Assembly (NCBI GenBank): GCA_963575645.1 | Contig: OY754465.1 | Coordinates: 6,696,001-6,760,000, forward strand | Direction of reading: 5' to 3' | Length of the DNA: 64,000 bases | Source of the DNA: Xanthostigma xanthostigma | Lineage: Eukaryota; Arthropoda; Insecta; Raphidioptera; Raphidiidae | Shown: positions 17,845-64,000 of the stretch, in pieces | Layout of the letters: each line of letters begins with the position of its first letter | How positions within the stretch are numbered: position 1 is the stretch's first letter | Notes under the pieces: generated by a model | Told to the model about the DNA's origin: nothing | The model's input: the letters and a program-made list of their open reading frames with translations, nothing else | Databases searched by the model: none | Translations under genes and position numbers: made by a program

Positions 17845-18580
17845 TAGGGACGCCGTAACTTCGAAACGACGAATGATGCAGATTCAGCGTGATTTTTTCT
17901 CTAAGAATAACCTCCGTTGTAAGTCGTTTGTGAACAATATCTAACAGATTCCTCGGTTTTTTAAAAAACAGAAAAAGTAAGAAGGGGTATCCCTTCTTAC
18001 AAAATTGAAAAATTGTTGTGAAATAAATTCGCTCTGTTTCGTTTGATAATATGCATACTTATAGAAAAAGTCACTATGAATCGATTCCAACCATCCGCAA
18101 CCCTGTATCGCTTTTAGTTTCGGAGATATAGCCCATTTAAACTGTTTAATTTTTTTTGATTTTAAACAATCATAGCGTCTAAACTAATAGAGATACGAAT
18201 TTGCGCTTAGGTCTAATCGATTCAGCGTACTTTTTTCTATAAGACACGGTAATATGAAGCAAATCTTTAAATTTTTTATATTTCTATAAATATCGTAAAT
18301 CTTTTCATGAGTTTTGCAAATTTGCAACAGATGTGGGAGTGGTCGGAATCGATTAAGCGCCTTTTTTTCTATTAGAAAAACCTCAGTTTAAATTGTATGT
18401 AAACAATATCTCACAGATTTCTGAGTTTTTTTTTTTTTAAATGGAAAAAGTAAAAATCCGCTATGTTTCGTTTGAGATACATAGGTACCTATAGAAACAG
18501 TCATTCTGAATCGATTCCGCCAATCCGCAACCCTGTATCGCTTTTAGTTTCGGAGATATAGCCCATTTTAACTGTTTAAA
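17845..18580 (+). repeat. Diverged relative of the 654-bp satellite
   Basis: This single stretch follows the satellite monomer in order: the 'cttcgaaacgacgaa…gattcagcg' box, the 24-nt hairpin (17977-18000), 'catacttatagaaaaagtca', 'gaatcgattcc…ccgcaaccctgtatcg', 'gcgtctaaactaa', and a second repeat of these up to 18578. Similarity is clear but many bases differ and part of the monomer is missing, so it is an old dispersed copy and not a recent spill from the array. It is fused to a Helitron 3' end. Confidence 0.85.
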
Positions 18581-18703
18581 TCTCAAGTAGCGACATCTGG
18601 TAGAATTTTCTCAAAGCTATTAGATCAGACGCCGGACGGCTAACGAAATTCATTTTGTAGAATTATATCTATCGCACCCGGGTGAGCCGGGAGGAACCGC
18701 TAG
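18581..18703 (+). mobile_element. Helitron 3' end attached to the satellite relative
   Basis: After the satellite-like part comes AGTAGCGACATCTGGTAG, also seen at 38012-38240, and then the terminal hairpin CCCGG/CCGGG followed by CTAG at 18700-18703 and a T. A hairpin just before CTRR, inserted at A|T, is the hallmark of Helitron 3' ends. Confidence 0.8.
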
Positions 18704-20215: not shown

Positions 20216-20418
20216 ACCAAACTTTACAGACACTACACATGTAAATCATGAACGTGTGTGCGTTACCCAGTAGCTGACGCCATATTGGTTCATGCGACAG
20301 ATATCGGTCCACCGCTACGCTCGAGTTTGGTCTTCTAGTTTTAAACTTCGTGGTTATATTATATCACCTACGTCATTAAACGATGTTTGCTATCTATTTA
20401 TTCTTTATCCGAATGATA
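20216..20418. other. Short spacer before Helitron copy 1
   Basis: The phrase 'tgacgccatattggttcatg' is shared with element D, so this may be more of a rearranged D copy. There is no gene. Confidence 0.35.
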
Positions 20419-21185
20419 TCTATACTAATATATAAAGCAGAAGAGTTTGTTTGTTTGTTTGAACGCGCTAATCTCAGGAACTACTGGTTCGAATTGAAAA
20501 ACATTTTTTTTGTTGGATAGCCCATTTATCGAGGAAGGCTATAGGCTATATAAAATCACGTTACGACTAATAGGAGCGGAAAATCAATGAAATCAGTCAA
20601 CATTTTTCACCATATACTTATATTCAGGTGAAATGCCGTAACAGAATATCCCAATATTAGCGGCGCACGCACCGAATCTCGGTTAGCTAAGTCGGTAGCG
20701 CGCTCGACTCTTAATCTCAGGGTCGTGGATTCGAGCCCCACCTTGGACGAAAATGTTTTTAATGTTTTTTTTTTTATTTTCTACATTGCTTTTTTCTAAG
20801 GCTATCATTTAAATTTATTTTAGTTTTATTTACAACTAATTAAAATTAAAAAAATCTAAATAATAGCTCATTTGAAAACTATTACAGTACCTATATGAAT
20901 ATAAAAATAATTTTCCTACAGTGTTTTCAATTAAATATTTATTATATTTTATTAATTATACAGTAATTACTGATTTAAAAGAAATAATTATTACTTAAAA
21001 AAAATATTTTCATCAAAAATGGAGGTTTGAGTTTAAAATAAGTAATAAAGCAGGGAACTGCCGAAAACTGCAAAACATTTGGACCCAACATTCATCTCGG
21101 TAAACTAAGATGAATGTGCGTACTCATGTCCGTTCCTTCCCCATTCGTTCTTTTGTACCCGGGTGAAACCGGACGGGACCGCTAG
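20419..21185 (+). mobile_element. Non-autonomous Helitron with tRNA-Lys segment, copy 1 (767 bp)
   Basis: The 5' end is TCTATACTAATATATAAAGC after an A. The 3' end is a CCCGG/CCGG hairpin, then GGGACCG and CTAG before a T. This fits rolling-circle Helitrons: TC start, hairpin plus CTRR end, A|T target. It encodes no Rep/helicase. The middle holds a tRNA-Lys-derived stretch followed by T-runs. Confidence 0.85.
20677..20749 (+). pseudogene. tRNA-Lys(CUU)-derived pseudogene inside Helitron copy 1
   Basis: D-arm text (TAGCTAAGTCGGTAGCGCG), an anticodon loop with CTT at 20710-20712 in 'gactcttaatctcaggg', and the T-arm TTCGAGCCCCA follow tRNA-Lys closely. The acceptor stem no longer pairs and the 3' side is altered (TTGGACG), so it is not expected to be a working tRNA. 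Box A and box B are intact enough that pol III transcription cannot be excluded. Confidence 0.8.
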
Positions 21186-21446
21186 TCTATTATATTAGTT
21201 AGAATGAAATGGATTCTAAATTTTTTTTTCTCAATACTTATAGGCCCCACTCACGATCAAACTTCATGCCACAGTTCAGTGTTCAAACTTATAGTTCAGT
21301 GAAGCATGATAATGTGTGGGACAAATAAACACTGAAACCAACACTGAAGCCAAGCATTAACTCATCAAGTAAACTGCTGTGTGTGTGGGTTTTTTTCAGT
21401 TCAGTTTTTGGAGTTCTGTGTTTTGTACAACCAGAAGCCAAAAATC

Positions 21447-28034: not shown

Positions 28035-28117
28035 CTAGCTGCTTCCCGCGAATCCGCACGCGATTGTGATGAAACACGGTAGCGACAGAAGTAGTGGAGC
28101 TTTCGGCTATACTTATT
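28035..28117 (-). mobile_element. Helitron 3' terminal fragment of another subfamily
   Basis: On the minus strand the fragment ends GCGGGAAGCAG then CTAG, before a T. The form is like Helitron ends, but the hairpin is weak. It is cut by, or ends at, the next Helitron. Confidence 0.45.
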
Positions 28118-28726
28118 TATACTAATATATTATAAAGCTGAAGAATTTGTTTGTTTGGTTGAACGCGTTAATCTCAGTAACTACTGGATCAAATTGAAAC
28201 AATTTTTTTTGTTGGATAGCCCATTTACCGAGGAAGGCTATAGGCTATATAATATTACGCTACGACCATTAGAAGCGGAGCTTTAATGAAAAATGTTGCT
28301 AAATGTGTCTCAAAAATAAGCTTCTATTTATGTGAAATGCACTAACTAGATATACTCATATTAGTGATGCAAGAACACAACATCAGGTAGATCAATCGGT
28401 AGAGCATGCGTCTGTTAATATCAGGGTCGTGGGTTCGAGCCCCACGTTAGGCAAATATATATATTTTTTTTTTTCATTTCTTTCTTCTAAGGCTTACATT
28501 TAAATTTATTTTAATTTTATTTAATTCATTTAAAAAAAATTATTAGTTAAAAAAAGTTTAAATATCTACTGCTTTTTATCGACAAAAACTTTTGAACGGT
28601 AACTCCGATCATCATGAAATTTGGACACAACATTCATCTCGATAAACTAAGATGAATGTGTGTACTCATGTCCATTCCTTCCCCATTCGTTCTTTTGCAC
28701 CCGGGTGAAACCGGGCGGGACCGCTA
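28118..28726 (+). mobile_element. Non-autonomous Helitron with tRNA segment, copy 2 (609 bp)
   Basis: The 5' TATACTAATATATTATAAAG start is slightly changed (TT for TC). The 3' end CCCGGGTGAAACCGGG hairpin plus CTAG (28723-28726) is intact. The tRNA-like part at 28383-28455 keeps the T-arm GGTTCGAGCCCCACG; the anticodon position reads GTT instead of CTT. Confidence 0.8.
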
Positions 28727-28991
28727 GTAGATGATAAAAGACAAACAATAAATTTAAAGAATTCCACAAGGTATGCGACGACACTGTCAAAGTCGAAGGT
28801 AAATAATCTTGTTTCAAGATATTACTCATACTTAAGACTTTAATAAAGTTTTTATGATGCATATTTTCACTGCTTTCTTCTCCAAGTACGTGTATGAAAA
28901 TATATATTTACACGTTATTTGTAATATTTAAAGTCAGGAAGGATTTATTTGTCCCGTAACAAATTATATTAAAATAAATACATTCTGCCTA
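28727..28991. other. Short AT-rich spacer
   Basis: No gene or repeat boundary that I can support. Confidence 0.4.
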
Positions 28992-36180: not shown

Positions 36181-36219
36181 TGTACAAAAAAATTAAAATA
36201 ATGATTTATAAGAGCTTTT

Positions 36220-40680: not shown

Positions 40681-41302
40681 TGTGTCATCTAGGGTCGAAT
40701 AAATATAGATGTATACTGCAAGCAGGGGTTGGTGGTATAACGGTGAAAATTTAGGGTTATAAGTATTTTTAATGGCAAATCATAAAAAAATTTTAAAAAA
40801 TTTTTGTCCAAAAAATAAAAAAAAATTCTGGAGAGGGCCACCCTTATCACCTAGGAGTATAAAAAATAGCCTACGACCTATTCTCAGACCTACCAAGTAT
40901 ACACAAAAAATTTCATAAAAATCGGTCAAGCCGTTTTGGAGGAGTTCGATAACAAACACTGTGACACGAGATTTTTATATATAGAGATATTGTTTTTCGT
41001 GATTGCTTAAAAAATGAAATTTATAAAAATGAATTATACGTGTTTATTTATTTGTTGACAGGAATAATCCTGAGCATTTTCGAATTGATACATCTATCTT
41101 ATATGATTTCTTCATGCAAATTTTGAACACACCCGTTACACCCTTTTAGAGGTTGATTTGTCAAAAATTTGTTCTTAGCGGATGCCTACGTCATAATAAC
41201 TATCTGTGTGCCAAATTTCAGCTCAATCCGTCCAGTGGTTTGACCTGTGCGTTGGTAGATCAGTCAGTCAGTCACGGTTTCCTTTTATATATTTATATTT
41301 AA
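40681..41302. other. Transposon-tail debris, no gene
   Basis: It contains two stretches typical of 3' non-coding ends of insect elements: 'aaaatcggtcaagccgtttt…gatttttatatatag' (40915-40990) and 'cagctcaatccgtccagtgg…cagtcagtcagtcacgg' (41218-41280). I cannot assign a superfamily. Confidence 0.5.
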
Positions 41303-41697
41303 CTAGCGGTCCCGTCCGGTTTCACCCGGGTGTAAAAGAACGAATGGGGAAGGGAGGAACATGAGTACACACATTCATTTTTTACTGAGATGAATGTTGT
41401 GTCCAAATTTCATGATGATCGGAGTTACCGTTCAAAAGTTTTTGTCGATAAAAAGCAGTATTTATACTTTTTTAAACTAATATATTTTTTTTAATTAATT
41501 AAATAAAAATTAAAGTAAATTTAACTGTAAGCCTTAGAAGAAAGCAATGTAGAAAATAAAAAAAAATATAAATGTTTTCGCCCAACGTAGGGCTCGAACC
41601 CACAACCCTGATATTGACAGTCGCATGCTCTACCGATTGAGCCACCTGAGGTTGTGTTCTCACAATGCTAATATGAGCATATTTAGTTAGTGCATAT
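41303..41697 (-). mobile_element. Helitron with tRNA segment, copy 4, 5' truncated
   Basis: The 3' end CTAG (41303-41306) and hairpin CCCGG/CCGGG are present. The tRNA-like part at about 41578-41652 has an intact T-arm GGTTCGAGCCC. The anticodon-loop area reads CTGTCAA, not CTCTTAA. The 5' half is replaced by an unrelated tail (41750-41874, 'aaaatcggtccagccgttta'). Confidence 0.8.
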
Positions 41698-41874
41698 CAA
41701 CAACTACTTACAAATAAAAAATTAATTAAAAAAACATTTTTCAGTGGACCAAATTGTGAATCGAAACCATTTTTGAATCCCCTTGAACGCACACAAAAAA
41801 TTTCATCAAAATCGGTCCAGCCGTTTAGGAGGAGTTCAGTGACATACACACTGACAGAAGAAATATATAATATA

Positions 41875-42469
41875 CTAGCGGTCCCGTCCGGTTTCACCCG
41901 GGTGTAAAAGAACGAATGGGGAAGGGACGCACATGAGTACACACATTCATATTAGTTTACCGAGATGAATGTTGTGTCCAAATTTCATGATGATCAGAGT
42001 TACCGTTCAAAATTTTTTGTCGATAAAAAGCGTATTTATACTTTTTTTAACTAATATTTTTTTTTAATTTATTAAATAGAATTAAAATAAATTTGAATGT
42101 AAGCCTAAGAAGAAAGCAATGTAGAAAATAAAAAAAAATAAAAATGCATTCGCCCAACGTAGGGCTCGAACCCACGACCCTGGTATTGAACGTCTTGTGC
42201 TTTACCGATTGCGCTAGCCGGCGTTGTATTCTTACATCGCTAATATGAGTATACTTAGTGCATTTCACCTGAATACAAGCTTATTTTTTAGATACATTTG
42301 GAACATTTTTCATTAATGCTCCGCTCCTAATGGTCGTAGCCTGATTTATTATAGCCTATAGCCTTCCTCGAACAAAAAACAAATTTTTTTTCAATTTGAA
42401 CTAGTAGTTCCTGAGATTAGCGCGTTCAAACAAACAAACAAACTCTTCAGCTTTATATATTAGTATAGA
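41875..42469 (-). mobile_element. Helitron with tRNA segment, copy 5 (595 bp)
   Basis: CTAG and hairpin lie at 41875-41905; on the minus strand the 5' end TCTATACTAATATATAAAGC is complete at 42450-42469. The tRNA-like part (about 42151-42226) has T-arm GGTTCGAGCCC, and the anticodon position reads TTC within GTTCAAT. It directly follows another element's tail. Confidence 0.85.
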
Positions 42470-42475
42470 TATAAA

Positions 42476-43215: not shown

Positions 43216-43640
43216 TCTATTCTAATATATAAAGCTAAAGAGTTGTTTGGTTGAATGCGCAAATCTCAGGAGCTACTGGTTCAAATTGTTGGATAGCTCA
43301 TTTATCGAGGAAGGATATAGGCTATATAATATCACGCTTCGACCAATAGGAGCGGAGCATCAATGAAAAATGTTGCAAAATGTATCTCAAAAATAACTTC
43401 TATTCAGGCGAAATGTCGTAACTACATATATCAATATTAGGTCGTGCATTCACAAGCCCGGCTCGGTCAGTCGGCAATCGTGGGCTTGAGCCCCACGTTG
43501 GGCGAATATATTAGTTTTTTTTTTTATTTTCCACATTGCTTTCTTCGAAGACTTACATTTAAATTTATTTTAATTTTATTTACGACTAAATGAAAGTAAA
43601 TAAATCTAATTAATAGCTCATTTAAAATTTGTTATAACTA
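43216..43640 (+). mobile_element. Helitron 5' half leading into the satellite array
   Basis: It starts TCTATTCTAATATATAAAGC and follows copies 1 and 2 through CATTTATCGAGGAAGG and the tRNA-like part (43456-43504). That part has lost its anticodon arm but kept the T-arm TTGAGCCCCACGTTGGGCG. Homology to copy 1 runs to about 43640 ('taatagctcattt'), where the satellite begins. No 3' Helitron end is seen in the window. Confidence 0.8.
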
Positions 43641-46600
43641 TAGGTACCCACTTATAGAAAAAGTCATTCTGAATCGATTCCGACCACCCGCAACCTTGTA
43701 TCTCTTTTGGTTTCGGAGATATAGCCAATTTAAACTGTTTAAATTTTTTTACACTTTAAACCGTCATAGCGTCTAAACTAACAGAGATACGAATGTGCGC
43801 TTGGTCCCATTCGATTCAGCGTACTTTTTTCTATAAGACACGTTACTATTAAGCATATCTGAAAAAATTATATATTTTGCCATATATCGCAAAATTTCAA
43901 GTTTTCATATACGTTTTGCAAAACTGCAACTTTTTAAGACACTAAACGACTTTTGGACTGTTCTATACTAACCGAGCTAATAGAAAATTTCAAGCTGAAT
44001 CGATTCCGACCATCCGCAACCCCGTATCACGTTTAGTTATGGAGATATGAGCGTTTATTCATAATATTAGGGAAAAACTTAAAAACGCTGTAGCTTCTAA
44101 ACGACGAAAGATACCGAGACGGGAGTGGTCGGAATCGATTCAGCGCGATTTTTTACATAAGAATAACCTCAGTTGTAAGTCGTATGCGAACATTATGACA
44201 GTGATTTTTGAGTTTTTTTAAAATCGAAAAAAGTAAGAAGGGGGGACCCTTCTTACAAAATTGGAAAATTTTCGAAAAATAAATTCGTTTGATATCATGC
44301 ATACTTATAGAAAAAGTCATTCTGAATCGATTCCGACCACCCGCAACCTTGTATCTCTTTTGGTTTCGGAGATATAGCCAATTTAAACTGTTTAAATTTT
44401 TTTACACTTTAAACCGTCATAGCGTCTAAACTAACAGAGATACGAATGTGCGCTTGGTCCCATTCGATTCAGCGTACTTTTTTCTATAAGACACGTTACT
44501 ATTAAGCATATCTGAAAAAATTATATATTTTGCCTAATATCGCAAAATTTCAAGTTTTCATATGCGTTTTGCAAAACTGCAACTTTTTAAGACACTAAAC
44601 GACTTTTGGACTGTTCTATACTAACCGAGCTAATAGAAAATTTCAAGCTGAATCGATTCCGACCATCCGCAACCCCGTATCACGTTTAGTTTTGGAGATA
44701 TGAGCGGTTTATTCATAATATTAGGGAAAAACTTAAAAACGCTGTAGCTTCTAAACGACGAAAGATACCGAGACGGGAGTAGTCGGAATCGATTCAGCGC
44801 GATTTTTTACATAAGAATAACCTCAGTTGTAAGTCGTATGCGAACATTATGACAGTGATTTTTGAGTTTTTTTAAAATCGAAAAAAGTAAGAAGGGGGGA
44901 CCCTTCTTACAAAATTGGAAAATTTTCGAAAAATAAATTCGTTTGATATCATGCATACTTATAGAAAAAGTCATTCTGAATCGATTCCGACCACCCGCAA
45001 CCTTGTATCTCTTTTGGTTTCGGAGATATAGCCAATTTAAACTGTTTAAATTTTTTTACACTTTAAACCGTCATAGCGTCTAAACTAACAGAGATACGAA
45101 TGTGCGCTTGGTCCCATTCGATTCAGCGTACTTTTTTCTATAAGACACGTTACTATTAAGCATATCTGAAAAAATTATATATTTTGCCTAATATCGCAAA
45201 ATTTCAAGTTTTCATATGCGTTTTGCAAAACTGCAACTTTTTAAGACACTAAACGACTTTTGGACTGTTCTATACTAACCGAGCTAATAGAAAATTTCAA
45301 GCTGAATCGATTCCGACCATCCGCAACCCCGTATCACGTTTAGTTTTTGAGATATGAGCGTTTATTCATAATATTAGGGAAAAACTTAAAAACGCTGTAG
45401 CTTCTAAACGACGAAAGATACCGAGACGGGAGTAGTCGGAATCGATTCAGCGCGATTTTTTACATAAGAATAACCTCAGTTGTAAGTCGTATGCGAACAT
45501 TATGACAGTGATTTTTGAGTTTTTTTAAAATCGAAAAAAGTAAGAAGGGGGGACCCTTCTTACAAAATTGGAAAATTTTCGAAAAATAAATTCGTTTGAT
45601 ATCATGCATACTTATAGAAAAAGTCATTCTGAATCGATTCCGACCACCCGCAACCTTGTATCTCTTTTGGTTTCGGAGATATAGCCAATTTAAACTGTTT
45701 AAATTTTTTTACACTTTAAACCGTCATAGCGTCTAAACTAACAGAGATACGAATGTGCGCTTGGTCCCATTCGATTCAGCGTACTTTTTTCTATAAGACA
45801 CGTTACTATTAAGCATATCTGAAAAAATTATATATTTTGCCTAATATCGCAAAATTTCAAGTTTTCATATGCGTTTTGCAAAACTGCAACTTTTTAAGAC
45901 ACTAAACGACTTTTGGACTGTTCTATACTAACCGAGCTAATAGAAAATTTCAAGCTGAATCGATTCCGACCATCCGCAACCCCGTATCACGTTTAGTTTT
46001 GGAGATATGAGCGGTTTATTCATAATATTAGGGAAAAACTTAAAAACGCTGTAGCTTCTAAACGACGAAAGATACCGAGACGGGAGTAGTCGGAATCGAT
46101 TCAGCGCGATTTTTTACATAAGAATAACCTCAGTTGTAAGTCGTATGCGAACATTATGACAGTGATTTTTGAGTTTTTTTAAAATCGAAAAAAGTAAGAA
46201 GGGGGGACCCTTCTTACAAAATTGGAAAATTTTCGAAAAATAAATTCGTTTGATATCATGCATACTTATAGAAAAAGTCATTCTGAATCGATTCCGACCA
46301 CCCGCAACCTTGTATCTCTTTTGGTTTCGGAGATATAGCCAATTTAAACTGTTTAAATTTTTTTACACTTTAAACCGTCATAGCGTCTAAACTAACAGAG
46401 ATACGAATGTGCGCTTGGTCCCATTCGATTCAGCGTACTTTTTTCTATAAGACACGTTACTATTAAGCATATCTGAAAAAATTATATATTTTGCCTAATA
46501 TCGCAAAATTTCAAGTTTTCATATGCGTTTTGCAAAACTGCAACTTTTTAAGACACTAAACGACTTTTGGACTGTTCTATACTAACCGAGCTAATAGAAA

Positions 46601-49600
46601 ATTTCAAGCTGAATCGATTCCGACCATCCGCAACCCCGTATCACGTTTAGTTTTTGAGATATGAGCGTTTATTCATAATATTAGGGAAAAACTTAAAAAC
46701 GCTGTAGCTTCTAAACGACGAAAGATACCGAGACGGGAGTAGTCGGAATCGATTCAGCGCGATTTTTTACATAAGAATAACCTCAGTTGTAAGTCGTATG
46801 CGAACATTATGACAGTGATTTTTGAGTTTTTTTAAAATCGAAAAAAGTAAGAAGGGGGGACCCTTCTTACAAAATTGGAAAATTTTCGAAAAATAAATTC
46901 GTTTGATATCATGCATACTTATAGAAAAAGTCATTCTGAATCGATTCCGACCACCCGCAACCTTGTATCTCTTTTGGTTTCGGAGATATAGCCAATTTAA
47001 ACTGTTTAAATTTTTTTACACTTTAAACCGTCATAGCGTCTAAACTAACAGAGATACGAATGTGCGCTTGGTCCCATTCGATTCAGCGTACTTTTTTCTA
47101 TAAGACACGTTACTATTAAGCATATCTGAAAAAATTATATATTTTGCCTAATATCGCAAAATTTCAAGTTTTCATATGCGTTTTGCAAAACTGCAACTTT
47201 TTAAGACACTAAACGACTTTTGGACTGTTCTATACTAACCGAGCTAATAGAAAATTTCAAGCTGAATCGATTCCGACCATCCGCAACCCCGTATCACGTT
47301 TAGTTTTGGAGATATGAGCGGTTTATTCATAATATTAGGGAAAAACTTAAAAACGCTGTAGCTTCTAAACGACGAAAGATACCGAGACGGGAGTAGTCGG
47401 AATCGATTCAGCGCGATTTTTTACATAAGAATAACCTCAGTTGTAAGTCGTATGCGAACATTATGACAGTGATTTTTGAGTTTTTTTAAAATCGAAAAAA
47501 GTAAGAAGGGGGGACCCTTCTTACAAAATTGGAAAATTTTCGAAAAATAAATTCGTTTGATATCATGCATACTTATAGAAAAAGTCATTCTGAATCGATT
47601 CCGACCACCCGCAACCTTGTATCTCTTTTGGTTTCGGAGATATAGCCAATTTAAACTGTTTAAATTTTTTTACACTTTAAACCGTCATAGCGTCTAAACT
47701 AACAGAGATACGAATGTGCGCTTGGTCCCATTCGATTCAGCGTACTTTTTTCTATAAGACACGTTACTATTAAGCATATCTGAAAAAATTATATATTTTG
47801 CCAAATATCGCAAAATTTCAAGTTTTCATATGCGTTTTGCAAAACTGCAACTTTTTAAGACACTAAACGACTTTTGGACTGTTCTATACTAACCGAGCTA
47901 ATAGAAAATTTCAAGCTGAATCGATTCCGACCATCCGCAACCCCGTATCACGTTTAGTTTTGGAGATATGAGCGGTTTATTCATAATATTAGGGAAAAAC
48001 TTAAAAACGCTGTAGCTTCTAAACGACGAAAGATACCGAGACGGGAGTAGTCGGAATCGATTCAGCGCGATTTTTTACATAAGAATAACCTCAGTTGTAA
48101 GTCGTATGCGAACATTATGACAGTGATTTTTGAGTTTTTTTAAAATCGAAAAAAGTAAGAAGGGGGGACCCTTCTTACAAAATTGGAAAATTTTCGAAAA
48201 ATAAATTCGTTTGATATCATGCATACTTATAGAAAAAGTCATTCTGAATCGATTCCGACCACCCGCAACCTTGTATCTCTTTTGGTTTCGGAGATATAGC
48301 CAATTTAAACTGTTTAAATTTTTTTACACTTTAAACCGTCATAGCGTCTAAACTAACAGAGATACGAATGTGCGCTTGGTCCCATTCGATTCAGCGTACT
48401 TTTTTCTATAAGACACGTTACTATTAAGCATATCTGAAAAAATTATATATTTTGCCAAATATCGCAAAATTTCAAGTTTTCATATGCGTTTTGCAAAACT
48501 GCAACTTTTTAAGACACTAAACGACTTTTGGACTGTTCTATACTAACCGAGCTAATAGAAAATTTCAAGCTGAATCGATTCCGACCATCCGCAACCCCGT
48601 ATCACGTTTAGTTTTGGAGATATGAGCGGTTTATTCATAATATTAGGGAAAAACTTAAAAACGCTGTAGCTTCTAAACGACAAAAGATACCGAGACGGGA
48701 GTGGTCGGAATCGATTCAGCGCGATTTTTTACATAAGAATAACCTCAGTTGTAAGTCGTATGCGAACATTATGACAGTGATTTTTGAGTTTTTTTAAAAT
48801 CGAAAAAAGTAAGAAGGGGGGACCCTTCTTACAAAATTGGAAAATTTTCGAAAAATAAATTCGTTTGATATCATGCATAAATATAGAAAAAGTCATTCTG
48901 AATCGATTCCGACCACCCGCAACCTTGTATCTCTTTTGGTTTCGGAGATATAGCCAATTTAAACTGTTTAAATTTTTTTACACTTTAAACCGTCATAGCG
49001 TCTAAACTAACAGAGATACGAATGTGCGCTTGGTCCCATTCGATTCAGCGTACTTTTTTCTATAAGACACGTTACTATTAAGCATATCTGAAAAAATTAT
49101 ATATTTTGCCAAATATCGCAAAATTTCAAGTTTTCATATGCGTTTTGCAAAACTGCAACTTTTTAAGACACTAAACGACTTTTGGACTGTTCTATACTAA
49201 CCGAGCTAATAGAAAATTTCAAGCTGAATCGATTCCGACCATCCGCAACCCCGTATCACGTTTAGTTTTGGAGATATGAGCGGTTTATTCATAATATTAG
49301 GGAAAAACTTAAAAACGCTGTAGCTTCTAAACGACGAAAGATACCGAGACGGGAGTAGTCGGAATCGATTCAGCGCGATTTTTTACATAAGAATAACCTC
49401 AGTTGTAAGTCGTATGCGAACATTATGACAGTGATTTTTGAGTTTTTTTAAAATCGAAAAAAGTAAGAAGGGGGGACCCTTCTTACAAAATTGGAAAATT
49501 TTCGAAAAATAAATTCGTTTGATATCATGCATACTTATAGAAAAAGTCATTCTGAATCGATTCCGACCACCCGCAACCTTGTATCTCTTTTGGTTTCGGA

Positions 49601-52600
49601 GATATAGCCAATTTAAACTGTTTAAATTTTTTTACATTTTAAACCGTCATAGCGTCTAAACTAACAGAGATACGAATGTGCGCTTGGTCCCATTCGATTC
49701 AGCGTACTTTTTTCTATAAGACACGTTACTATTAAGCATATCTGAAAAAATTATATATTTTGCCTAATATCGCAAAATTTCAAGTTTTCATATGCGTTTT
49801 GCAAAACTGCAACTTTTTAAGACACTAAACGACTTTTGGACTGTTCTATACTAACCGAGCTAATAGAAAATTTCAAGCTGAATCGATTCCGACCATCCGC
49901 AACCCCGTATCACGTTTAGTTTTGGAGATATGAGTGTTTATTCATAATATTAGGGAAAAACTTAAAAACGCTGTAGCTTCTAAACGACGAAAGATACCGA
50001 GACGGGAGTAGTCGGAATCGATTCAGCGCGATTTTTTACATAAGAATAACCTCAGTTGTAAGTCGTATGCGAACATTATGACAGTGATTTTTGAGTTTTT
50101 TTAAAATCGAAAAAGTAAGAAGGGGGGACCCTTCTTACAAAATTGGAAAATTTTCGAAAAATAAATTCGTTTGATATCATGCATACTTATAGAAAAAGTC
50201 ATTCTGAATCGATTCCGACCACCCGCAACCTTGTATCTCTTTTGGTTTCGGAGATATAGCCAATTTAAACTGTTTAAATTTTTTTACATTTTAAACCGTC
50301 ATAGCGTCTAAACTAACAGAGATACGAATGTGCGCTTGGTCCCATTCGATTCAGCGTACTTTTTTCTATAAGACACGTTATTAAGCATATCTGAAAAAAT
50401 TATATATTTTGCCTAATATCGCAAAATTTCAAGTTTTCATATGCGTTTTGCAAAACTGCAACTTTTTAGACACTAAACGACTTTTGGACTGTTCTATACT
50501 AACCGAGCTAATAGAAAATTTCAAGCTGAATCGATTCCGACCATCCGCAACCCCGTATCACGTTTAGTTTTGGAGATATGAGCGTTTATTCATAATATTA
50601 GGGAAAAACTTAAAAACGCTGTAGCTTCTAAACGACGAAAGATACCGAGACGGGAGTAGTCGGAATCGATTCAGCGCGATTTTTTACATAAGAATAACCT
50701 CAGTTGTAAGTCGTATGCGAACATTATGACAGTGATTTTTGAGTTTTTTTAAAATCGAAAAAAGTAAGAAGGGGGGACCCTTCTTACAAAATTGGAAAAT
50801 TTTCGAAAAATAAATTCGTTTGATATCATGCATACTTATAGAAAAAGTCATTCTGAATCGATTCCGACCACCCGCAACCTTGTATCTCTTTTGGTTTCGG
50901 AGATATAGCCAATTTAAACTGTTTAAATTTTTTTACACTTTAAACCGTCATAGCGTCTAAACTAACAGAGATACGAATGTGCGCTTGGTCCCATTCGATT
51001 CAGCGTACTTTTTTCTATAAGACACGTTACTATTAAGCATATCTGAAAAAATTATATATTTTGCCTAATATCGCAAAATTTCAAGTTTTCATATGCGTTT
51101 TGCAAAACTGCAACTTTTTAAGACACTAAACGACTTTTGGACTGTTCTATACTAACCGAGCTAATAGAAAATTTCAAGCTGAATCGATTCCGACCATCCG
51201 CAACCCCGTATCACGTTTAGTTTTTGAGATATGAGCGTTTATTCATAATATTAGGGAAAAACTTAAAAACGCTGTAGCTTCTAAACGACGAAAGATACCG
51301 AGACGGGAGTAGTCGGAATCGATTCAGCGCGATTTTTTACATAAGAATAACCTCAGTTGTAAGTCGTATGCGAACATTATGACAGTGATTTTTGAGTTTT
51401 TTTAAAATCGAAAAAAGTAAGAAGGGGGGACCCTTCTTACAAAATTGGAAAATTTTCGAAAAATAAATTCGTTTGATATCATGCATACTTATAGAAAAAG
51501 TCATTCTGAATCGATTCCGACCACCCGCAACCTTGTATCTCTTTTGGTTTCGGAGATATAGCCAATTTAAACTGTTTAAATTTTTTTACACTTTAAACCG
51601 TCATAGCGTCTAAACTAACAGAGATACGAATGTGCGCTTGGTCCCATTCGATTCAGCGTACTTTTTTCTATAAGACACGTTACTATTAAGCATATCTGAA
51701 AAAATTATATATTTTGCCAAATATCGCAAAATTTCAAGTTTTCATATGCGTTTTGCAAAACTGCAACTTTTTAAGACACTAAACGACTTTTGGACTGTTC
51801 TATACTAACCGAGCTAATAGAAAATTTCAAGCTGAATCGATTCCGACCATCCGCAACCCCGTATCACGTTTAGTTTTGGAGATATGAGCGGTTTATTCAT
51901 AATATTAGGGAAAAACTTAAAAACGCTGTAGCTTCTAAACGACGAAAGATACCGAGACGGGAGTAGTCGGAATCGATTCAGCGCGATTTTTTACATAAGA
52001 ATAACCTCAGTTGTAAGTCGTATGCGAACATTATGACAGTGATTTTTGAGTTTTTTTAAAATCGAAAAAAGTAAGAAGGGGGGACCCTTCTTACAAAATT
52101 GGAAAATTTTCGAAAAATAAATTCGTTTGATATCATGCATACTTATAGAAAAAGTCATTCTGAATCGATTCCGACCACCCGCAACCTTGTATCTCTTTTG
52201 GTTTCGGAGATATAGCCAATTTAAACTGTTTAAATTTTTTTACACTTTAAACCGTCATAGCGTCTAAACTAACAGAGATACGAATGTGCGCTTGGTCCCA
52301 TTCGATTCAGCGTACTTTTTTCTATAAGACACGTTACTATTAAGCATATCTGAAAAAATTATATATTTTGCCAAATATCGCAAAATTTCAAGTTTTCATA
52401 TGCGTTTTGCAAAACTGCAACTTTTTAAGACACTAAACGACTTTTGGACTGTTCTATACTAACCGAGCTAATAGAAAATTTCAAGCTGAATCGATTCCGA
52501 CCATCCGCAACCCCGTATCACGTTTAGTTTTGGAGATATGAGCGGTTTATTCATAATATTAGGGAAAAACTTAAAAACGCTGTAGCTTCTAAACGACGAA

Positions 52601-55600
52601 AGATACCGAGACGGGAGTAGTCGGAATCGATTCAGCGCGATTTTTTACATAAGAATAACCTCAGTTGTAAGTCGTATGCGAACATTATGACAGTGATTTT
52701 TGAGTTTTTTTAAAATCGAAAAAAGTAAGAAGGGGGGACCCTTCTTACAAAATTGGAAAATTTTCGAAAAATAAATTCGTTTGATATCATGCATACTTAT
52801 AGAAAAAGTCATTCTGAATCGATTCCGACCACCCGCAACCTTGTATCTCTTTTGGTTTCGGAGATATAGCCAATTTAAACTGTTTAAATTTTTTTACACT
52901 TTAAACCGTCATAGCGTCTAAACTAACAGAGATACGAATGTGCGCTTGGTCCCATTCGATTCAGCGTACTTTTTTCTATAAGACACGTTACTATTAAGCA
53001 TATCTGAAAAAATTATATATTTTTCCAAATATCGCAAAATTTCAAGTTTTCATATGCGTTTTGCAAAACTGCAACTTTTTAAGACACTAAACGACTTTTG
53101 GACTGTTCTATACTAACCGAGCTAATAGAAAATTTCAAGCTGAATCGATTCCGACCATCCGCAACCCCGTATCACGTTTAGTTTTGGAGATATGAGCGGT
53201 TTATTCATAATATTAGGGAAAAACTTAAAAACGCTGTAGCTTCTAAACGACGAAAGATACCGAGACGGGAGTAGTCGGAATCGATTCAGCGCGATTTTTT
53301 ACATAAGAATAACCTCAGTTGTAAGTCGTATGCGAACATTATGACAGTGATTTTTGAGTTTTTTTAAAATCGAAAAAAGTAAGAAGGGGGGACCCTTCTT
53401 ACAAAATTGGAAAATTTTCGAAAAATAAATTCGTTTGATATCATGCATACTTATAGAAAAAGTCATTCTGAATCGATTCCGACCACCCGCAACCTTGTAT
53501 CTCTTTTGGTTTCGGAGATATAGCCAATTTAAACTGTTTAAATTTTTTTACACTTTAAACCGTCATAGCGTCTAAACTAACAGAGATACGAATGTGCGCT
53601 TGGTCCCATTCGATTCAGCGTACTTTTTTCTATAAGACACGTTACTATTAAGCATATCTGAAAAAATTATATATTTTGCCAAATATCGCAAAATTTCAAG
53701 TTTTCATATGCGTTTTGCAAAACTGCAACTTTTTAAGACACTAAACGACTTTTGGACTGTTCTATACTAACCGAGCTAATAGAAAATTTCAAGCTGAATC
53801 GATTCCGACCATCCGCAACCCCGTATCACGTTTAGTTTTGGAGATATGAGCGGTTTATTCATAATATTAGGGAAAAACTTAAAAACGCTGTAGCTTCTAA
53901 ACGACGAAAGATACCGAGACGGGAGTAGTCGGAATCGATTCAGCGCGATTTTTTACATAAGAATAACCTCAGTTGTAAGTCGTATGCGAACATTATGACA
54001 GTGATTTTTGAGTTTTTTTAAAATCGAAAAAAGTAAGAAGGGGGGACCCTTCTTACAAAATTGGAAAATTTTCGAAAAATAAATTCGTTTGATATCATGC
54101 ATACTTATAGAAAAAGTCATTCTGAATCGATTCCGACCACCCGCAACCTTGTATCTCTTTTGGTTTCGGAGATATAGCCAATTTAAACTGTTTAAATTTT
54201 TTTACACTTTAAACCGTCATAGCGTCTAAACTAACAGAGATACGAATGTGCGCTTGGTCCCATTCGATTCAGCGTACTTTTTTCTATAAGACACGTTACT
54301 ATTAAGCATATCTGAAAAAATTATATATTTTGCCAAATATCGCAAAATTTCAAGTTTTCATATGCGTTTTGCAAAACTGCAACTTTTTAAGACACTAAAC
54401 GACTTTTGGACTGTTCTATACTAACCGAGCTAATAGAAAATTTCAAGCTGAATCGATTCCGACCATCCGCAACCCCGTATCACGTTTAGTTTTGGAGATA
54501 TGAGCGGTTTATTCATAATATTAGGGAAAAACTTAAAAACGCTGTAGCTTCTAAACGACGAAAGATACCGAGACGGGAGTAGTCGGAATCGATTCAGCGC
54601 GATTTTTTACATAAGAATAACCTCAGTTGTAAGTCGTATGCGAACATTATGACAGTGATTTTTGAGTTTTTTTAAAATCGAAAAAAGTAAGAAGGGGGGA
54701 CCCTTCTTACAAAATTGGAAAATTTTCGAAAAATAAATTCGTTTGATATCATGCATACTTATAGAAAAAGTCATTCTGAATCGATTCCGACCACCCGCAA
54801 CCTTGTATCTCTTTTGGTTTCGGAGATATAGCCAATTTAAACTGTTTAAATTTTTTTACACTTTAAACCGTCATAGCGTCTAAACTAACAGAGATACGAA
54901 TGTGCGCTTGGTCCCATTCGATTCAGCGTACTTTTTTCTATAAGACACGTTACTATTAAGCATATCTGAAAAAATTATATATTTTTCCAAATATCGCAAA
55001 ATTTCAAGTTTTCATATGCGTTTTGCAAAACTGCAACTTTTTAAGACACTAAACGACTTTTGGACTGTTCTATACTAACCGAGCTAATAGAAAATTTCAA
55101 GCTGAATCGATTCCGACCATCCGCAACCCCGTATCACGTTTAGTTTTGGAGATATGAGCGGTTTATTCATAATATTAGGGAAAAACTTAAAAACGCTGTA
55201 GCTTCTAAACGACGAAAGATACCGAGACGGGAGTAGTCGGAATCGATTCAGCGCGATTTTTTACATAAGAATAACCTCAGTTGTAAGTCGTATGCGAACA
55301 TTATGACAGTGATTTTTGAGTTTTTTTAAAATCGAAAAAAGTAAGAAGGGGGGACCCTTCTTACAAAATTGGAAAATTTTCGAAAAATAAATTCGTTTGA
55401 TATCATGCATACTTATAGAAAAAGTCATTCTGAATCGATTCCGACCACCCGCAACCTTGTATCTCTTTTGGTTTCGGAGATATAGCCAATTTAAACTGTT
55501 TAAATTTTTTTACACTTTAAACCGTCATAGCGTCTAAACTAACAGAGATACGAATGTGCGCTTGGTCCCATTCGATTCAGCGTACTTTTTTCTATAAGAC

Positions 55601-58600
55601 ACGTTACTATTAAGCATATCTGAAAAAATTATATATTTTGCCAAATATCGCAAAATTTCAAGTTTTCATATGCGTTTTGCAAAACTGCAACTTTTTAAGA
55701 CACTAAACGACTTTTGGACTGTTCTATACTAACCGAGCTAATAGAAAATTTCAAGCTGAATCGATTCCGACCATCCGCAACCCCGTATCACGTTTAGTTT
55801 TGGAGATATGAGCGGTTTATTCATAATATTAGGGAAAAACTTAAAAACGCTGTAGCTTCTAAACGACGAAAGATACCGAGACGGGAGTAGTCGGAATCGA
55901 TTCAGCGCGATTTTTTACATAAGAATAACCTCAGTTGTAAGTCGTATGCGAACATTATGACAGTGATTTTTGAGTTTTTTTAAAATCGAAAAAAGTAAGA
56001 AGGGGGGACCCTTCTTACAAAATTGGAAAATTTTCGAAAAATAAATTCGTTTGATATCATGCATACTTATAGAAAAAGTCATTCTGAATCGATTCCGACC
56101 ACCCGCAACCTTGTATCTCTTTTGGTTTCGGAGATATAGCCAATTTAAACTGTTTAAATTTTTTTACACTTTAAACCGTCATAGCGTCTAAACTAACAGA
56201 GATACGAATGTGCGCTTGGTCCCATTCGATTCAGCGTACTTTTTTCTATAAGACACGTTACTATTAAGCATATCTGAAAAAATTATATATTTTGCCAAAT
56301 ATCGCAAAATTTCAAGTTTTCATATGCGTTTTGCAAAACTGCAACTTTTTAAGACACTAAACGACTTTTGGACTGTTCTATACTAACCGAGCTAATAGAA
56401 AATTTCAAGCTGAATCGATTCCGACCATCCGCAACCCCGTATCACGTTTAGTTTTGGAGATATGAGCGGTTTATTCATAATATTAGGGAAAAACTTAAAA
56501 ACGCTGTAGCTTCTAAACGACGAAAGATACCGAGACGGGAGTAGTCGGAATCGATTCAGCGCGATTTTTTACATAAGAATAACCTCAGTTGTAAGTCGTA
56601 TGCGAACATTATGACAGTGATTTTTGAGTTTTTTTAAAATCGAAAAAAGTAAGAAGGGGGGACCCTTCTTACAAAATTGGAAAATTTTCGAAAAATAAAT
56701 TCGTTTGATATCATGCATACTTATAGAAAAAGTCATTCTGAATCGATTCCGACCACCCGCAACCTTGTATCTCTTTTGGTTTCGGAGATATAGCCAATTT
56801 AAACTGTTTAAATTTTTTTACATTTTAAACCGTCATAGCGTCTAAACTAACAGAGATACGAATGTGCGCTTGGTCCCATTCGATTCAGCGTACTTTTTTC
56901 TATAAGACACGTTACTATTAAGCATATCTGAAAAAATTATATATTTTGCCAAATATCGCAAAATTTCAAGTTTTCATATGCGTTTTGCAAAACTGCAACT
57001 TTTTAAGACACTAAACGACTTTTGGACTGTTCTATACTAACCGAGCTAATAGAAAATTTCAAGCTGAATCGATTCCGACCATCCGCAACCCCGTATCACG
57101 TTTAGTTTTGGAGATATGAGCGTTTATTCATAATATTAGGGAAAAACTTAAAAACGCTGTAGCTTCTAAACGACGAAAGATACCGAGACGGGAGTAGTCG
57201 GAACGATTCAGCGCGATTTTTTACATAAGAATAACCTCAGTTGTAAGTCGTATGCGAACATTATGACAGTGATTTTTGAGTTTTTTTAAAATCGAAAAAA
57301 GTAAGAAGGGGGGACCCTTCTTACAAAATTGGAAAATTTTTCGAAAAATAAATTCGTTTGATATCATGCATACTTATAGAAAAAGTCATTCTGAATCGAT
57401 TCCGACCACCCGCAACCTTGTATCTCTTTTGGTTTCGGAGATATAGCCAATTTAAACTGTTTAAATTTTTTTACACTTTAAACCGTCATAGCGTCTAAAC
57501 TAACAGAGATACGAATGTGCGCTTGGTCCCATTCGATTCAGCGTACTTTTTTCTATAAGACACGTTACTATTAAGCATATCTGAAAAAATTATATATTTT
57601 GCCAAATATCGCAAAATTTCAAGTTTTCATATGCGTTTTGCAAAACTGCAACTTTTTAAGACACTAAACGACTTTTGGACTGTTCTATACTAACCGAGCT
57701 AATAGAAAATTTCAAGCTGAATCGATTCCGACCATCCGCAACCCCGTATCACGTTTAGTTTTGGAGATATGAGCGGTTTATTCATAATATTAGGGAAAAA
57801 CTTAAAAACGCTGTAGCTTCTAAACGACGAAAGATACCGAGACGGGAGTAGTCGGAATCGATTCAGCGCGATTTTTTACATAAGAATAACCTCAGTTGTA
57901 AGTCGTATGCGAACATTATGACAGTGATTTTTGAGTTTTTTTAAAATCGAAAAAAGTAAGAAGGGGGGACCCTTCTTACAAAATTGGAAAATTTTCGAAA
58001 AATAAATTCGTTTGATATCATGCATACTTATAGAAAAAGTCATTCTGAATCGATTCCGACCACCCGCAACCTTGTATCTCTTTTGGTTTCGGAGATATAG
58101 CCAATTTAAACTGTTTAAATTTTTTTACACTTTAAACCGTCATAGCGTCTAAACTAACAGAGATACGAATGTGCGCTTGGTCCCATTCGATTCAGCGTAC
58201 TTTTTTCTATAAGACACGTTACTATTAAGCATATCTGAAAAAATTATATATTTTGCCAAATATCGCAAAATTTCAAGTTTTCATATGCGTTTTGCAAAAC
58301 TGCAACTTTTTAAGACACTAAACGACTTTTGGACTGTTCTATACTAACCGAGCTAATAGAAAATTTCAAGCTGAATCGATTCCGACCATCCGCAACCCCG
58401 TATCACGTTTAGTTTTGGAGATATGAGCGGTTTATTCATAATATTAGGGAAAAACTTAAAAACGCTGTAGCTTCTAAACGACGAAAGATACCGAGACGGG
58501 AGTAGTCGGAATCGATTCAGCGCGATTTTTTACATAAGAATAACCTCAGTTGTAAGTCGTATGCGAACATTATGACAGTGATTTTTGAGTTTTTTTAAAA

Positions 58601-61600
58601 TCGAAAAAAGTAAGAAGGGGGGACCCTTCTTACAAAATTGGAAAATTTTCGAAAAATAAATTCGTTTGATATCATGCATACTTATAGAAAAAGTCATTCT
58701 GAATCGATTCCGACCACCCGCAACCTTGTATCTCTTTTGGTTTCGGAGATATAGCCAATTTAAACTGTTTAAATTTTTTTACATTTTAAACCGTCATAGC
58801 GTCTAAACTAACAGAGATACGAATGTGCGCTTGGTCCCATTCGATTCAGCGTACTTTTTTCTATAAGACACGTTACTATTAAGCATATCTGAAAAAATTA
58901 TATATTTTGCCTAATATCGCAAAATTTCAAGTTTTCATATGCGTTTTGCAAAACTGCAACTTTTTAAGACACTAAACGACTTTTGGACTGTTCTATACTA
59001 ACCGAGCTAATAGAAAATTTCAAGCTGAATCGATTCCGACCATCCGCAACCCCGTATCACGTTTAGTTTTGGAGATATGAGCGTTTATTCATAATATTAG
59101 GGAAAAACTTAAAAACGCTGTAGCTTCTAAACGACGAAAGATACCGAGACGGGAGTAGTCGGAATCGATTCAGCGCGATTTTTTACATAAGAATAACCTC
59201 AGTTGTAAGTCGTATGCGAACATTATGACAGTGATTTTTGAGTTTTTTTAAAATCGAAAAAAGTAAGAAGGGGGGACCCTTCTTACAAAATTGGAAAATT
59301 TTCGAAAAATAAATTCGTTTGATATCATGCATACTTATAGAAAAAGTCATTCTGAATCGATTCCGACCACCCGCAACCTTGTATCTCTTTTGGTTTCGGA
59401 GATATAGCCAATTTAAACTGTTTAAATTTTTTTACATTTTAAACCGTCATAGCGTCTAAACTAACAGAGATACGAATGTGCGCTTGGTCCCATTCGATTC
59501 AGCGTACTTTTTTCTATAAGACACGTTACTATTAAGCATATCTGAAAAAATTATATATTTTGCCTAATATCGCAAAATTTCAAGTTTTCATATGCGTTTT
59601 GCAAAACTGCAACTTTTTAAGACACTAAACGACTTTTGGACTGTTCTATACTAACCGAGCTAATAGAAAATTTCAAGCTGAATCGATTCCGACCATCCGC
59701 AACCCCGTATCACGTTTAGTTTTGGAGATATGAGCGTTTATTCATAATATTAGGGAAAAACTTAAAAACGCTGTAGCTTCTAAACGACGAAAGATACCGA
59801 GACGGGAGTAGTCGGAATCGATTCAGCGCGATTTTTTACATAAGAATAACCTCAGTTGTAAGTCGTATGCGAACATTATGACAGTGATTTTTGAGTTTTT
59901 TTAAAATCGAAAAAAGTAAGAAGGGGGGACCCTTCTTACAAAATTGGAAAATTTTCGAAAAATAAATTCGTTTGATATCATGCATACTTATAGAAAAAGT
60001 CATTCTGAATCGATTCCGACCACCCGCAACCTTGTATCTCTTTTGGTTTCGGAGATATAGCCAATTTAAACTGTTTAAATTTTTTTACATTTTAAACCGT
60101 CATAGCGTCTAAACTAACAGAGATACGAATGTGCGCTTGGTCCCATTCGATTCAGCGTACTTTTTTCTATAAGACACGTTACTATTAAGCATATCTGAAA
60201 AAATTATATATTTTGCCTAATATCGCAAAATTTCAAGTTTTCATATGCGTTTTGCAAAACTGCAACTTTTTAAGACACTAAACGACTTTTGGACTGTTCT
60301 ATACTAACCGAGCTAATAGAAAATTTCAAGCTGAATCGATTCCGACCATCCGCAACCCCGTATCACGTTTAGTTTTGGAGATATGAGCGTTTATTCATAA
60401 TATTAGGGAAAAACTTAAAAACGCTGTAGCTTCTAAACGACGAAAGATACCGAGACGGGAGTAGTCGGAATCGATTCAGCGCGATTTTTTACATAAGAAT
60501 AACCTCAGTTGTAAGTCGTATGCGAACATTATGACAGTGATTTTTGAGTTTTTTTAAAATCGAAAAAAGTAAGAAGGGGGGACCCTTCTTACAAAATTGG
60601 AAAATTTTCGAAAAATAAATTCGTTTGATATCATGCATACTTATAGAAAAAGTCATTCTGAATCGATTCCGACCACCCGCAACCTTGTATCTCTTTTGGT
60701 TTCGGAGATATAGCCAATTTAAACTGTTTAAATTTTTTTACATTTTAAACCGTCATAGCGTCTAAACTAACAGAGATACGAATGTGCGCTTGGTCCCATT
60801 CGATTCAGCGTACTTTTTTCTATAAGACACGTTACTATTAAGCATATCTGAAAAAATTATATATTTTGCCTAATATCGCAAAATTTCAAGTTTTCATATG
60901 CGTTTTGCAAAACTGCAACTTTTTAAGACACTAAACGACTTTTGGACTGTTCTATACTAACCGAGCTAATAGAAAATTTCAAGCTGAATCGATTCCGACC
61001 ATCCGCAACCCCGTATCACGTTTAGTTTTGGAGATATGAGCGTTTATTCATAATATTAGGGAAAAACTTAAAAACGCTGTAGCTTCTAAACGACGAAAGA
61101 TACCGAGACGGGAGTAGTCGGAATCGATTCAGCGCGATTTTTTACATAAGAATAACCTCAGTTGTAAGTCGTATGCGAACATTATGACAGTGATTTTTGA
61201 GTTTTTTTAAAATCGAAAAAAGTAAGAAGGGGGGACCCTTCTTACAAAATTGGAAAATTTTCGAAAAATAAATTCGTTTGATATCATGCATACTTATAGA
61301 AAAAGTCATTCTGAATCGATTCCGACCACCCGCAACCTTGTATCTCTTTTGGTTTCGGAGATATAGCCAATTTAAACTGTTTAAATTTTTTTACATTTTA
61401 AACCGTCATAGCGTCTAAACTAACAGAGATACGAATGTGCGCTTGGTCCCATTCGATTCAGCGTACTTTTTTCTATAAGACACGTTACTATTAAGCATAT
61501 CTGAAAAAATTATATATTTTGCCTAATATCGCAAAATTTCAAGTTTTCATATGCGTTTTGCAAAACTGCAACTTTTTAAGACACTAAACGACTTTTGGAC

Positions 61601-64000
61601 TGTTCTATACTAACCGAGCTAATAGAAAATTTCAAGCTGAATCGATTCCGACCATCCGCAACCCCGTATCACGTTTAGTTTTGGAGATATGAGCGTTTAT
61701 TCATAATATTAGGGAAAAACTTAAAAACGCTGTAGCTTCTAAACGACGAAAGATACCGAGACGGGAGTAGTCGGAATCGATTCAGCGCGATTTTTTACAT
61801 AAGAATAACCTCAGTTGTAAGTCGTATGCGAACATTATGACAGTGATTTTTGAGTTTTTTTAAAATCGAAAAAAGTAAGAAGGGGGGACCCTTCTTACAA
61901 AATTGGAAAATTTTCGAAAAATAAATTCGTTTGATATCATGCATACTTATAGAAAAAGTCATTCTGAATCGATTCCGACCACCCGCAACCTTGTATCTCT
62001 TTTGGTTTCGGAGATATAGCCAATTTAAACTGTTTAAATTTTTTTACATTTTAAACCGTCATAGCGTCTAAACTAACAGAGATACGAATGTGCGCTTGGT
62101 CCCATTCGATTCAGCGTACTTTTTTCTATAAGACACGTTACTATTAAGCATATCTGAAAAAATTATATATTTTGCCTAATATCGCAAAATTTGAAGTTTT
62201 CATATGCGTTTTGCAAAACTGCAACTTTTTAAGACACTAAACGACTTTTGGACTGTTCTATACTAACCGAGCTAATAGAAAATTTCAAGCTGAATCGATT
62301 CCGACCATCCGCAACCCCGTATCACGTTTAGTTTTGGAGATATGAGCGTTTATTCATAATATTAGGGAAAAACTTAAAAACGCTGTAGCTTCTAAACGAC
62401 GAAAGATACCGAGACGGGAGTAGTCGGAATCGATTCAGCGCGATTTTTTACATAAGAATAACCTCAGTTGTAAGTCGTATGCGAACATTATGACAGTGAT
62501 TTTTGAGTTTTTTTAAAATCGAAAAAAGTAAGAAGGGGGGACCCTTCTTACAAAATTGGAAAATTTTCGAAAAATAAATTCGTTTGATATCATGCATACT
62601 TATAGAAAAAGTCATTCTGAATCGATTCCGACCACCCGCAACCTTGTATCTCTTTTGGTTTCGGAGATATAGCCAATTTAAACTGTTTAAATTTTTTTAC
62701 ATTTTAAACCGTCATAGCGTCTAAACTAACAGAGATACGAATGTGCGCTTGGTCCCATTCGATTCAGCGTACTTTTTTCTATAAGACACGTTACTATTAA
62801 GCATATCTGAAAAAATTATATATTTTGCCTAATATCGCAAAATTTCAAGTTTTCATATGCGTTTTGCAAAACTGCAACTTTTTAAGACACTAAACGACTT
62901 TTGGACTGTTCTATACTAACCGAGCTAATAGAAAATTTCAAGCTGAATCGATTCCGACCATCCGCAACCCCGTATCACGTTTAGTTTTGGAGATATGAGC
63001 GTTTATTCATAATATTAGGGAAAAACTTAAAAACGCTGTAGCTTCTAAACGACGAAAGATACCGAGACGGGAGTAGTCGGAATCGATTCAGCGCGATTTT
63101 TTACATAAGAATAACCTCAGTTGTAAGTCGTATGCGAACATTATGACAGTGATTTTTGAGTTTTTTTAAAATCGAAAAAAGTAAGAAGGGGGGACCCTTC
63201 TTACAAAATTGAAAAATTTTCGAAAAATAAATTCGTTTGATATCATGCATACTTATAGAAAAAGTCATTCTGAATCGATTCCGACCACCCGCAACCTTGT
63301 ATCTCTTTTGGTTTCGGAGATATAGCCAATTTAAACTGTTAAAATTTTTTTACACTTTAAACCGTCATAGCGTCTAAACTAACAGAGATACGAATGTGCG
63401 CTTGGTCCCATTCGATTCAGCGTACTTTTTTCTATAAGACACGTTACTATTAAGCATATCTGAAAAAATTATATATTTTGCCTAATATCGCAAAATTTCA
63501 AGTTTTCATATGCGTTTTGCAAAACTGCAACTTTTTAAGACACTAAACGACTTTTGGACTGTTCTATACTAACCGAGCTAATAGAAAATTTCAAGCTGAA
63601 TCGATTCCGACCATCCGCAACCCCGTATCACGTTTAGTTTTGGAGATATGAGCGTTTATTCATAATATTAGGGAAAAACTTAAAAACGCTGTAGCTTCTA
63701 AACGACGAAAGATACCGAGACGGGAGTAGTCGGAATCGATTCAGCGCGATTTTTTACATAAGAATAACCTCAGTTGTAAGTCGTATGCGAACATTATGAC
63801 AGTGATTTTTGAGTTTTTTTAAAATCGAAAAAAGTAAGAAGGGGGGACCCTTCTTACAAAATTGAAAAATTTTCGAAAAATAAATTCGTTTGATATCATG
63901 CATACTTATAGAAAAAGTCATTCTGAATCGATTCCGACCACCCGCAACCTTGTATCTCTTTTGGTTTCGGAGATATAGCCAATTTAAACTGTTTAAATTT
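43641..64000 (+). repeat. Satellite array, 653-654 bp monomer, about 31 copies
   Basis: The marker GATATCATGCATA recurs at 44291, 44945, 45598, 46252 and so on to 63892: 31 occurrences with spacings of 653 or 654, apart from 652 and 649 at 49521-50822. Copies differ by very few bases. All units are head to tail, and there is no gene, no inserted element and no open frame of 60 codons across 20 kb. The array continues past the right edge. It is probably heterochromatic; a centromeric role is possible but not shown. Confidence 0.98.
44233..44256 (+). repeat. 24-nt hairpin present in every satellite monomer
   Basis: The arms GTAAGAAGGG and CCCTTCTTAC are perfect complements around the 4-nt loop GGGA. 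The example given is the first copy; it recurs once per 653-654 bp through the array. The diverged relative at 17977-18000 has the same arms with loop GTAT. Confidence 0.9.

Follow-up and report, generated by a model that had tools for sequence, protein, structure and literature searches.

In Drosophila, central repeats of Helitron-type elements such as DINE-TR1 have turned into satellites (for example, dmgsat-7) with arrays of up to ~82.6 kb, as stated in the available part of a paper that cites Dias et al. 2015 for this (PMC9957191). An earlier note on the DNA analyzed here had pointed to such DINE-type emergence of satellites from Helitron central repeats, and this precedent is indeed described in that part of the source. 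In the Pacific oyster, Cg_HINE elements hold satellite-like arrays between their left and right modules and a related stand-alone satellite exists besides, according to the accessible sections of the report (PMC7492417). Abrupt joins of satellites and transposons, sometimes in palindromes or at short stretches of similarity, have likewise been described (PMC5139131, PMC12628747), and a 2025 review mentions arrays both inside and outside Helitron-type elements (PMC12628747; both sources as far as their available parts go).

The locus that we compare with these systems lies on contig C2 of the Xanthostigma xanthostigma assembly (623 Mb, 28 contigs). Our analysis covered the window, i.e., the whole stretch of 64,000 nucleotides at C2:6696001-6760000, together with a further 120 kb on its right flank.

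A satellite array inside a non-autonomous Helitron

The entire satellite array sits within one non-autonomous Helitron of ~710 bp. The 5' part of this element, which belongs to a family that we call family 1, was delimited by alignment of its relatives and spans 434 bp (43216..43649, forward strand); directly after it, at about 43650, the satellite sets in abruptly, close to where the earlier note had placed the start of the array. Unit alignment and flank comparison show that the array (43650..64000, forward strand) fills the window without a break and continues to C2:6768375 (window coordinate 72375), where it directly adjoins the right half and 3' end of the same Helitron in the orientation of the 5' part (C2:6768379-6768655, window 72379-72655). 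Inspection of the far end of the array for a Helitron 3' module, a check that the earlier note had proposed, thus did reveal one. The left join (43640..43662, forward strand) reads ATAGGTACC/CACTTATAGAAAAA, or ATAGGTACC/CACTTATAG in a longer reading, and occurs in its exact form only once genome-wide; the right join (C2:6768371-6768379) reads GCATACC/TACCTATATAAAA.

The array measures 28,726 bp (28.7 kb) and consists of 44 head-to-tail units of about 653/654 bp, which are 99.1-100% identical to the array consensus (divergence of 0-0.9% across the 44 units); we measured divergence against the consensus, given that the pairwise mean of 0.962 is distorted by one row fusing two units. Each unit falls into two halves of about 327 bp, which have diverged from each other and both contain an imperfect inverted repeat some 190 bp long. 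The inverted-repeat arms of the half-unit are 70% alike, and GAATCGATTCCGACC-like motifs are found in both orientations. A scan of 2 kb of the array against Rfam revealed no known structured RNA up to an E value of 1, and the unit has no strict match to NTTCGNNNNANNCGGGN, which we take to be the CENP-B box motif, the best candidate showing 2 mismatches.

The first and the last unit of the array, which were both included in the comparison, have G at position 478, where the array consensus has A; the fused double-unit row also has G. Outside the array, G is found in five of seven copies (those on contigs C6 and C10 and C11, the dispersed copy L050, and the decayed copy at 17881-18581 described below), with T in the C4 array and a gap in the dispersed copy L051. 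The end units of arrays are often spared by homogenization, and the G shared between the outermost units and outside copies fits an interior that was homogenized after insertion, i.e., expansion in place.

The Helitron begins with TCTATTCTAATATATAAAGC at 43216, preceded by A (A/TC at 43215/43216), and ends with TTAG followed by T at C2:6768655; it has thus inserted between A and T, as is typical of Helitrons. Four further family-1 copies lie in the window, all ending in CTAG (CTRR type) where the array-bearing copy has TTAG: copy B (20416..21194, forward strand), copy C (41866..42472, reverse strand), copy D (28113..28753, forward strand, with the CTAG end within this range), and the 5'-truncated copy E (41302-41699). 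The A/TC start is also present in B and C but altered in D, and copies B, C, and D are free of satellite. Single-strand DNA folding of 3' ends, where a terminal hairpin is expected in Helitrons, was no better than that of shuffled sequences, neither for the array-bearing copy (z 1.08) nor for the Helitron end at 18703 discussed below (z -0.77). All five family-1 copies in the window (20416, 28113, 41302, 42472, and 43216) share a stretch that we take to be tRNA-Lys-like and that is followed by a run of T; the earlier note had already seen this part in the 5' sequence, and we found it to be common to B, C, D, and E. At 43440-43510, in the array-bearing copy, the middle of this stretch is deleted. 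ARAGORN called no tRNA in the window, and a literature search on tRNA-Lys-like stretches in Helitrons found nothing.

Genome-wide, the family-1 5' part has at least 41 matches (with the best 40 of 4795 candidates scored), and its closest relative among the matches listed is 87% identical and has an empty site. Seven aligned relatives (L021-L024, two copies at L025, and L026) are continuous through the array site, with ATAGGTACC running directly into TATATAAAA or, in a wider reading, AACTATAGGTACC into TATATAAAAATAATTATCC; L022 has a small deletion beside this empty site. Copy B and another copy, R9923, have rearranged interiors that are satellite-free. When compared with the majority consensus of eight other copies (leave-one-out), the array-bearing Helitron shows differences at 32 of 428 sites in its left half (7.5%) and at 17 of 275 in its right half (6.2%); this consensus retains outlying 3' parts of L022 and L025b (33%) and of B (20%) that reflect truncation or poor trimming. 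The 2 halves are therefore about equally old. Taken together, their shared orientation, the contiguous empty site of the relatives, and the similar divergence make a single old element, interrupted by the array, the simplest reading of the flanking pieces. Since this Helitron differs from its family by several per cent and the units differ from their consensus by only 0-0.9%, the array in its present homogeneous state is far younger than its host.

A search for autonomous Rep/helicase genes using PF14214 (Helitron_like_N) gave 89 matches from 99 candidates, all above the cut-off. More than 30 of these contain open frames close to 1,550 aa in length, and many are equal in score, which suggests recent Helitron activity in this genome.

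The satellite elsewhere in the genome and a second join

The satellite also exists elsewhere without a Helitron. A second array at C4:7805615-7813341, the best units of which are 94% identical and one 90%, has flanks (left, 915 bp; right, about 1,060 bp) that do not match the Helitron queries. Repeated rows further mark arrays at C6:44521240-44527199, at C11:24089788-24108209, and on C1 across at least 66725321-66768346. In the 5' flank of the C1 array (644 bp), hits to Helitron pieces are weak, the best being AT-rich with 74.5% identity over 51 bp (E 1e-4); at its other end, sampled in 41-base slices, there is a family-1 Helitron that has an empty site and terminates near C1:66722276, separated from the array by some hundred bases. 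Dispersed decayed copies account for at least 104 matches (with the best 32 of 1197 candidates scored) and are found, among the matches listed, on contigs C1, C2, C3, C4, C5, C7, C8, C9, and C10. Judged by their flanks, the copies L050 and L051 lie outside family-1 Helitrons, with Helitron pieces about 350 bp away from L050. At its unit boundary the copy on C10 reads GCATACCTACTTATAG, with TACCTA in common with the Helitron site.

Other repeats of the region touch on this satellite. A 265-bp tandem repeat in 2 copies (24516-25180) has a core about 69% similar to the inverted-repeat half of the satellite unit, and a stretch of similar sequence is located at offset 117779-117923 to the right of the window; this points to a broader superfamily of palindromic repeats. 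A further repeat, about 700 bp long, is present in 3 copies that are 90-96% alike (14855-15520, 25177-25881, and 36216-36897), of which the one at 25177 adjoins the 265-bp tandem repeat.

In the window itself, about 1.2 units of decayed and rearranged satellite (17881..18581, forward strand) were identified by BLAST as 4 pieces with 77-89% identity to the array unit. As the earlier note had observed, this diverged satellite really is joined to a Helitron 3' end (18570..18703, forward strand), which is truncated and terminates with CTAG at 18700-18703. Its family, family 2, is about 400 bp in length and carries tandem repeats of ~66 bp, and AACTGTTT is common to the satellite and family 2 at the join at about 18575. 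At 26 of 26 other family-2 loci examined we found no satellite match; the set comprised 30 loci, of which 2 satellite matches lacking the module and 2 that correspond to the window locus were set aside. The family-2 copy at 38311 in the window also lacks the satellite. With its 3' end at 18703 coming from another Helitron family, this join is an event separate from the array join, and the proposal of the earlier note that the 2 joins are the 2 ends of one ancestral Helitron had to be abandoned. Within the decayed satellite, an internal unit boundary at 18476-18492 (ATAGGTACCTATAGAAA) is like the Helitron insertion site at 16 of 17 bases.

We also searched for further Helitrons with an internal unit, as the earlier note had suggested, and among the matches listed the C2 locus was the only one. 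None of 8 close relatives (L021-L028) has the satellite inside the Helitron, though at L028 a satellite-like stretch lies 1.4 kb upstream of the element. Queries across the left join (161 and 111 bases) and across the right join (146 bases) were each matched over their full span by 1 of the best 40 rows; in each case this row is the C2 locus itself. With the 111-base query, 8 Helitron rows extend 13 bases beyond the join, which we tentatively put down to the likeness of native TATATAAAAATAA to ACTTATAGAAAAA. Two rows of the right-join query overrun the join by 30 and 18 bases (on C8 and C5, respectively) and were considered as candidates for a second unit-bearing Helitron; reading of the loci revealed an empty site on C8 and a different dispersed repeat on C5. 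A unit-bearing Helitron that is rare and diverged might have escaped these searches of the best candidates. At C5:10620370-10621350 (L083 and L087), the unrelated dispersed repeat abuts a family-1 Helitron at the join point of the satellite, and it also matches L031, L047, L052, and L054.

Origin of the nested array

We consider it highly probable that the locus arose by nested insertion of a pre-existing satellite into an old Helitron, followed by local expansion. A TC...CTAG-type non-autonomous Helitron of about 710 bp would have inserted at C2:6739216 long ago, and a satellite already present in the genome would later have contributed an insert of one or a few units to its interior, at the palindrome ATAGGTACCTAT. 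Entry probably occurred by illegitimate recombination of satellite DNA (e.g., an extrachromosomal circle) via the short common TACC(TA), and the insert would then have grown in place to 44 near-identical units by unequal exchange or a similar process. What the sequences show directly is the nesting, the empty site of the relatives, the equal age of the 2 Helitron halves, the young array, and the presence of the satellite elsewhere with no Helitron around it; from these we infer in which order the events took place, that a circle and microhomology were involved, and how the array expanded.

Both joins fall within a TACCTA motif, which we regard as suggestive only: The unit boundary at C2 is matched as well by 22 of 295 other Helitron windows as by the true site. 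Local alignment of the Helitron copy L026 with the satellite was not significant (p 0.79 for the C2 dimer and p 0.18 for the decayed copy), and derivation of the satellite from Helitron sequence was rejected for want of significant similarity. The duplicated TACC at the right join could represent a 4-bp target duplication or, alternatively, TACCTACC may be native, a variant of the Helitron itself; several of the best 40 rows of the right-join query also start at an extra TACC. Because the satellite and the unrelated repeat on C5 are both joined at the point between TACC and TATATAAAA, the palindrome ATAGGTACCTAT of the very abundant family 1 might be a hotspot of breakage or recombination that admits foreign repeats, an idea that we hold to be unlikely; if true, thousands of old Helitron copies would be docking sites for starting new satellite loci.

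Other histories were weighed against nested insertion. The array lies exactly between the 2 halves of a Helitron, growth of central repeats of non-autonomous Helitrons into satellites has been published (PMC9957191 and PMC7492417, in their available parts), and the unit boundary at 18476 in the decayed satellite agrees with the Helitron site at the 16 of 17 bases given above, all of which would suit the origin favored by the earlier note, an ancestral Helitron with a central repeat from which the satellite elsewhere descended. We nevertheless hold this origin to be very improbable, for a second unit-bearing Helitron is absent among the matches listed, the native interior of the family-1 copies compared lacks the repeat unit, the C4 array has no Helitron, the unit is not significantly similar to the Helitron, the join at about 18575 involves another family, and an old Helitron copy contains a young array. 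What stands of the proposal is that the satellite lies within a Helitron, both halves of which flank the array; that it was born there finds no support, given the C4 array without Helitron and the youth of the array. It is also quite improbable, in our view, that a Helitron captured a piece of satellite and transposed with it before the array grew. Capture of host sequence, often tandem repeats, is reported for Helitrons in the accessible part of the 2025 review (PMC12628747), and the 89 Helitron_like_N matches represent a putative source of transposition, but among the matches listed there is no sister copy that shares these joins, and the site is empty in the closest of these relatives (87% over the 5' part).

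Family 1 occupies 7,839 of 154,555 bases (5.1% of the 154.6 kb around the array), so that Helitron pieces are common near any point, and the joins are known from assembly sequence alone; flanks stemming from 2 Helitron copies, or a collapsed or misjoined array, are on these grounds conceivable as chance or artifact. We give almost no credence to this explanation, given that both pieces abut the array in the same orientation and with similar divergence and that they meet at one site in the relatives with nothing missing. The same local coverage, along with the many satellite pieces in the genome, means that a satellite within a Helitron is to be expected and that nested insertion needs no special link between the two.

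Comparison with described Helitron-linked satellites

The presence of the satellite elsewhere in the genome makes the Helitron its host and probably not its creator. Like DINE-TR1, the element described here is of the non-autonomous Helitron type and has tandem repeats arrayed at its center; in DINE-TR1, however, the repeat is a family feature with homology across species, as far as the available part of the source describes it, whereas here a single copy is interrupted and the family interiors examined are repeat-free. With Cg_HINE it shares a satellite-like array between the modules of a non-autonomous element as well as a stand-alone satellite, but the accessible sections of that report describe many copies with the same joins and arrays that are central repeats, in contrast to the single locus of 28.7 kb with TC/CTAG ends that we found. 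A unit at the same interior place in several family copies, as known from DINE-TR1 and HINE, was seen in 0 of 8 relatives and in 1 of the best 40 rows per join query.

Helitron-linked satellites are often taken to be Helitron-born, but the C2 locus favors an old transposon as passive host and urges caution against reading the origin of a satellite from its flanks alone. Compared with known satellite junctions in repeats, as covered in the available parts of the literature (PMC5139131, PMC12628747), both joins, the empty site, and homogenization in place can be read at this one locus, which makes it a clean case of a satellite seeding a new locus and then growing in place. We therefore favor a direction opposite to that of the known Helitron-derived satellites, with the transposon as the host of the satellite and not its parent.
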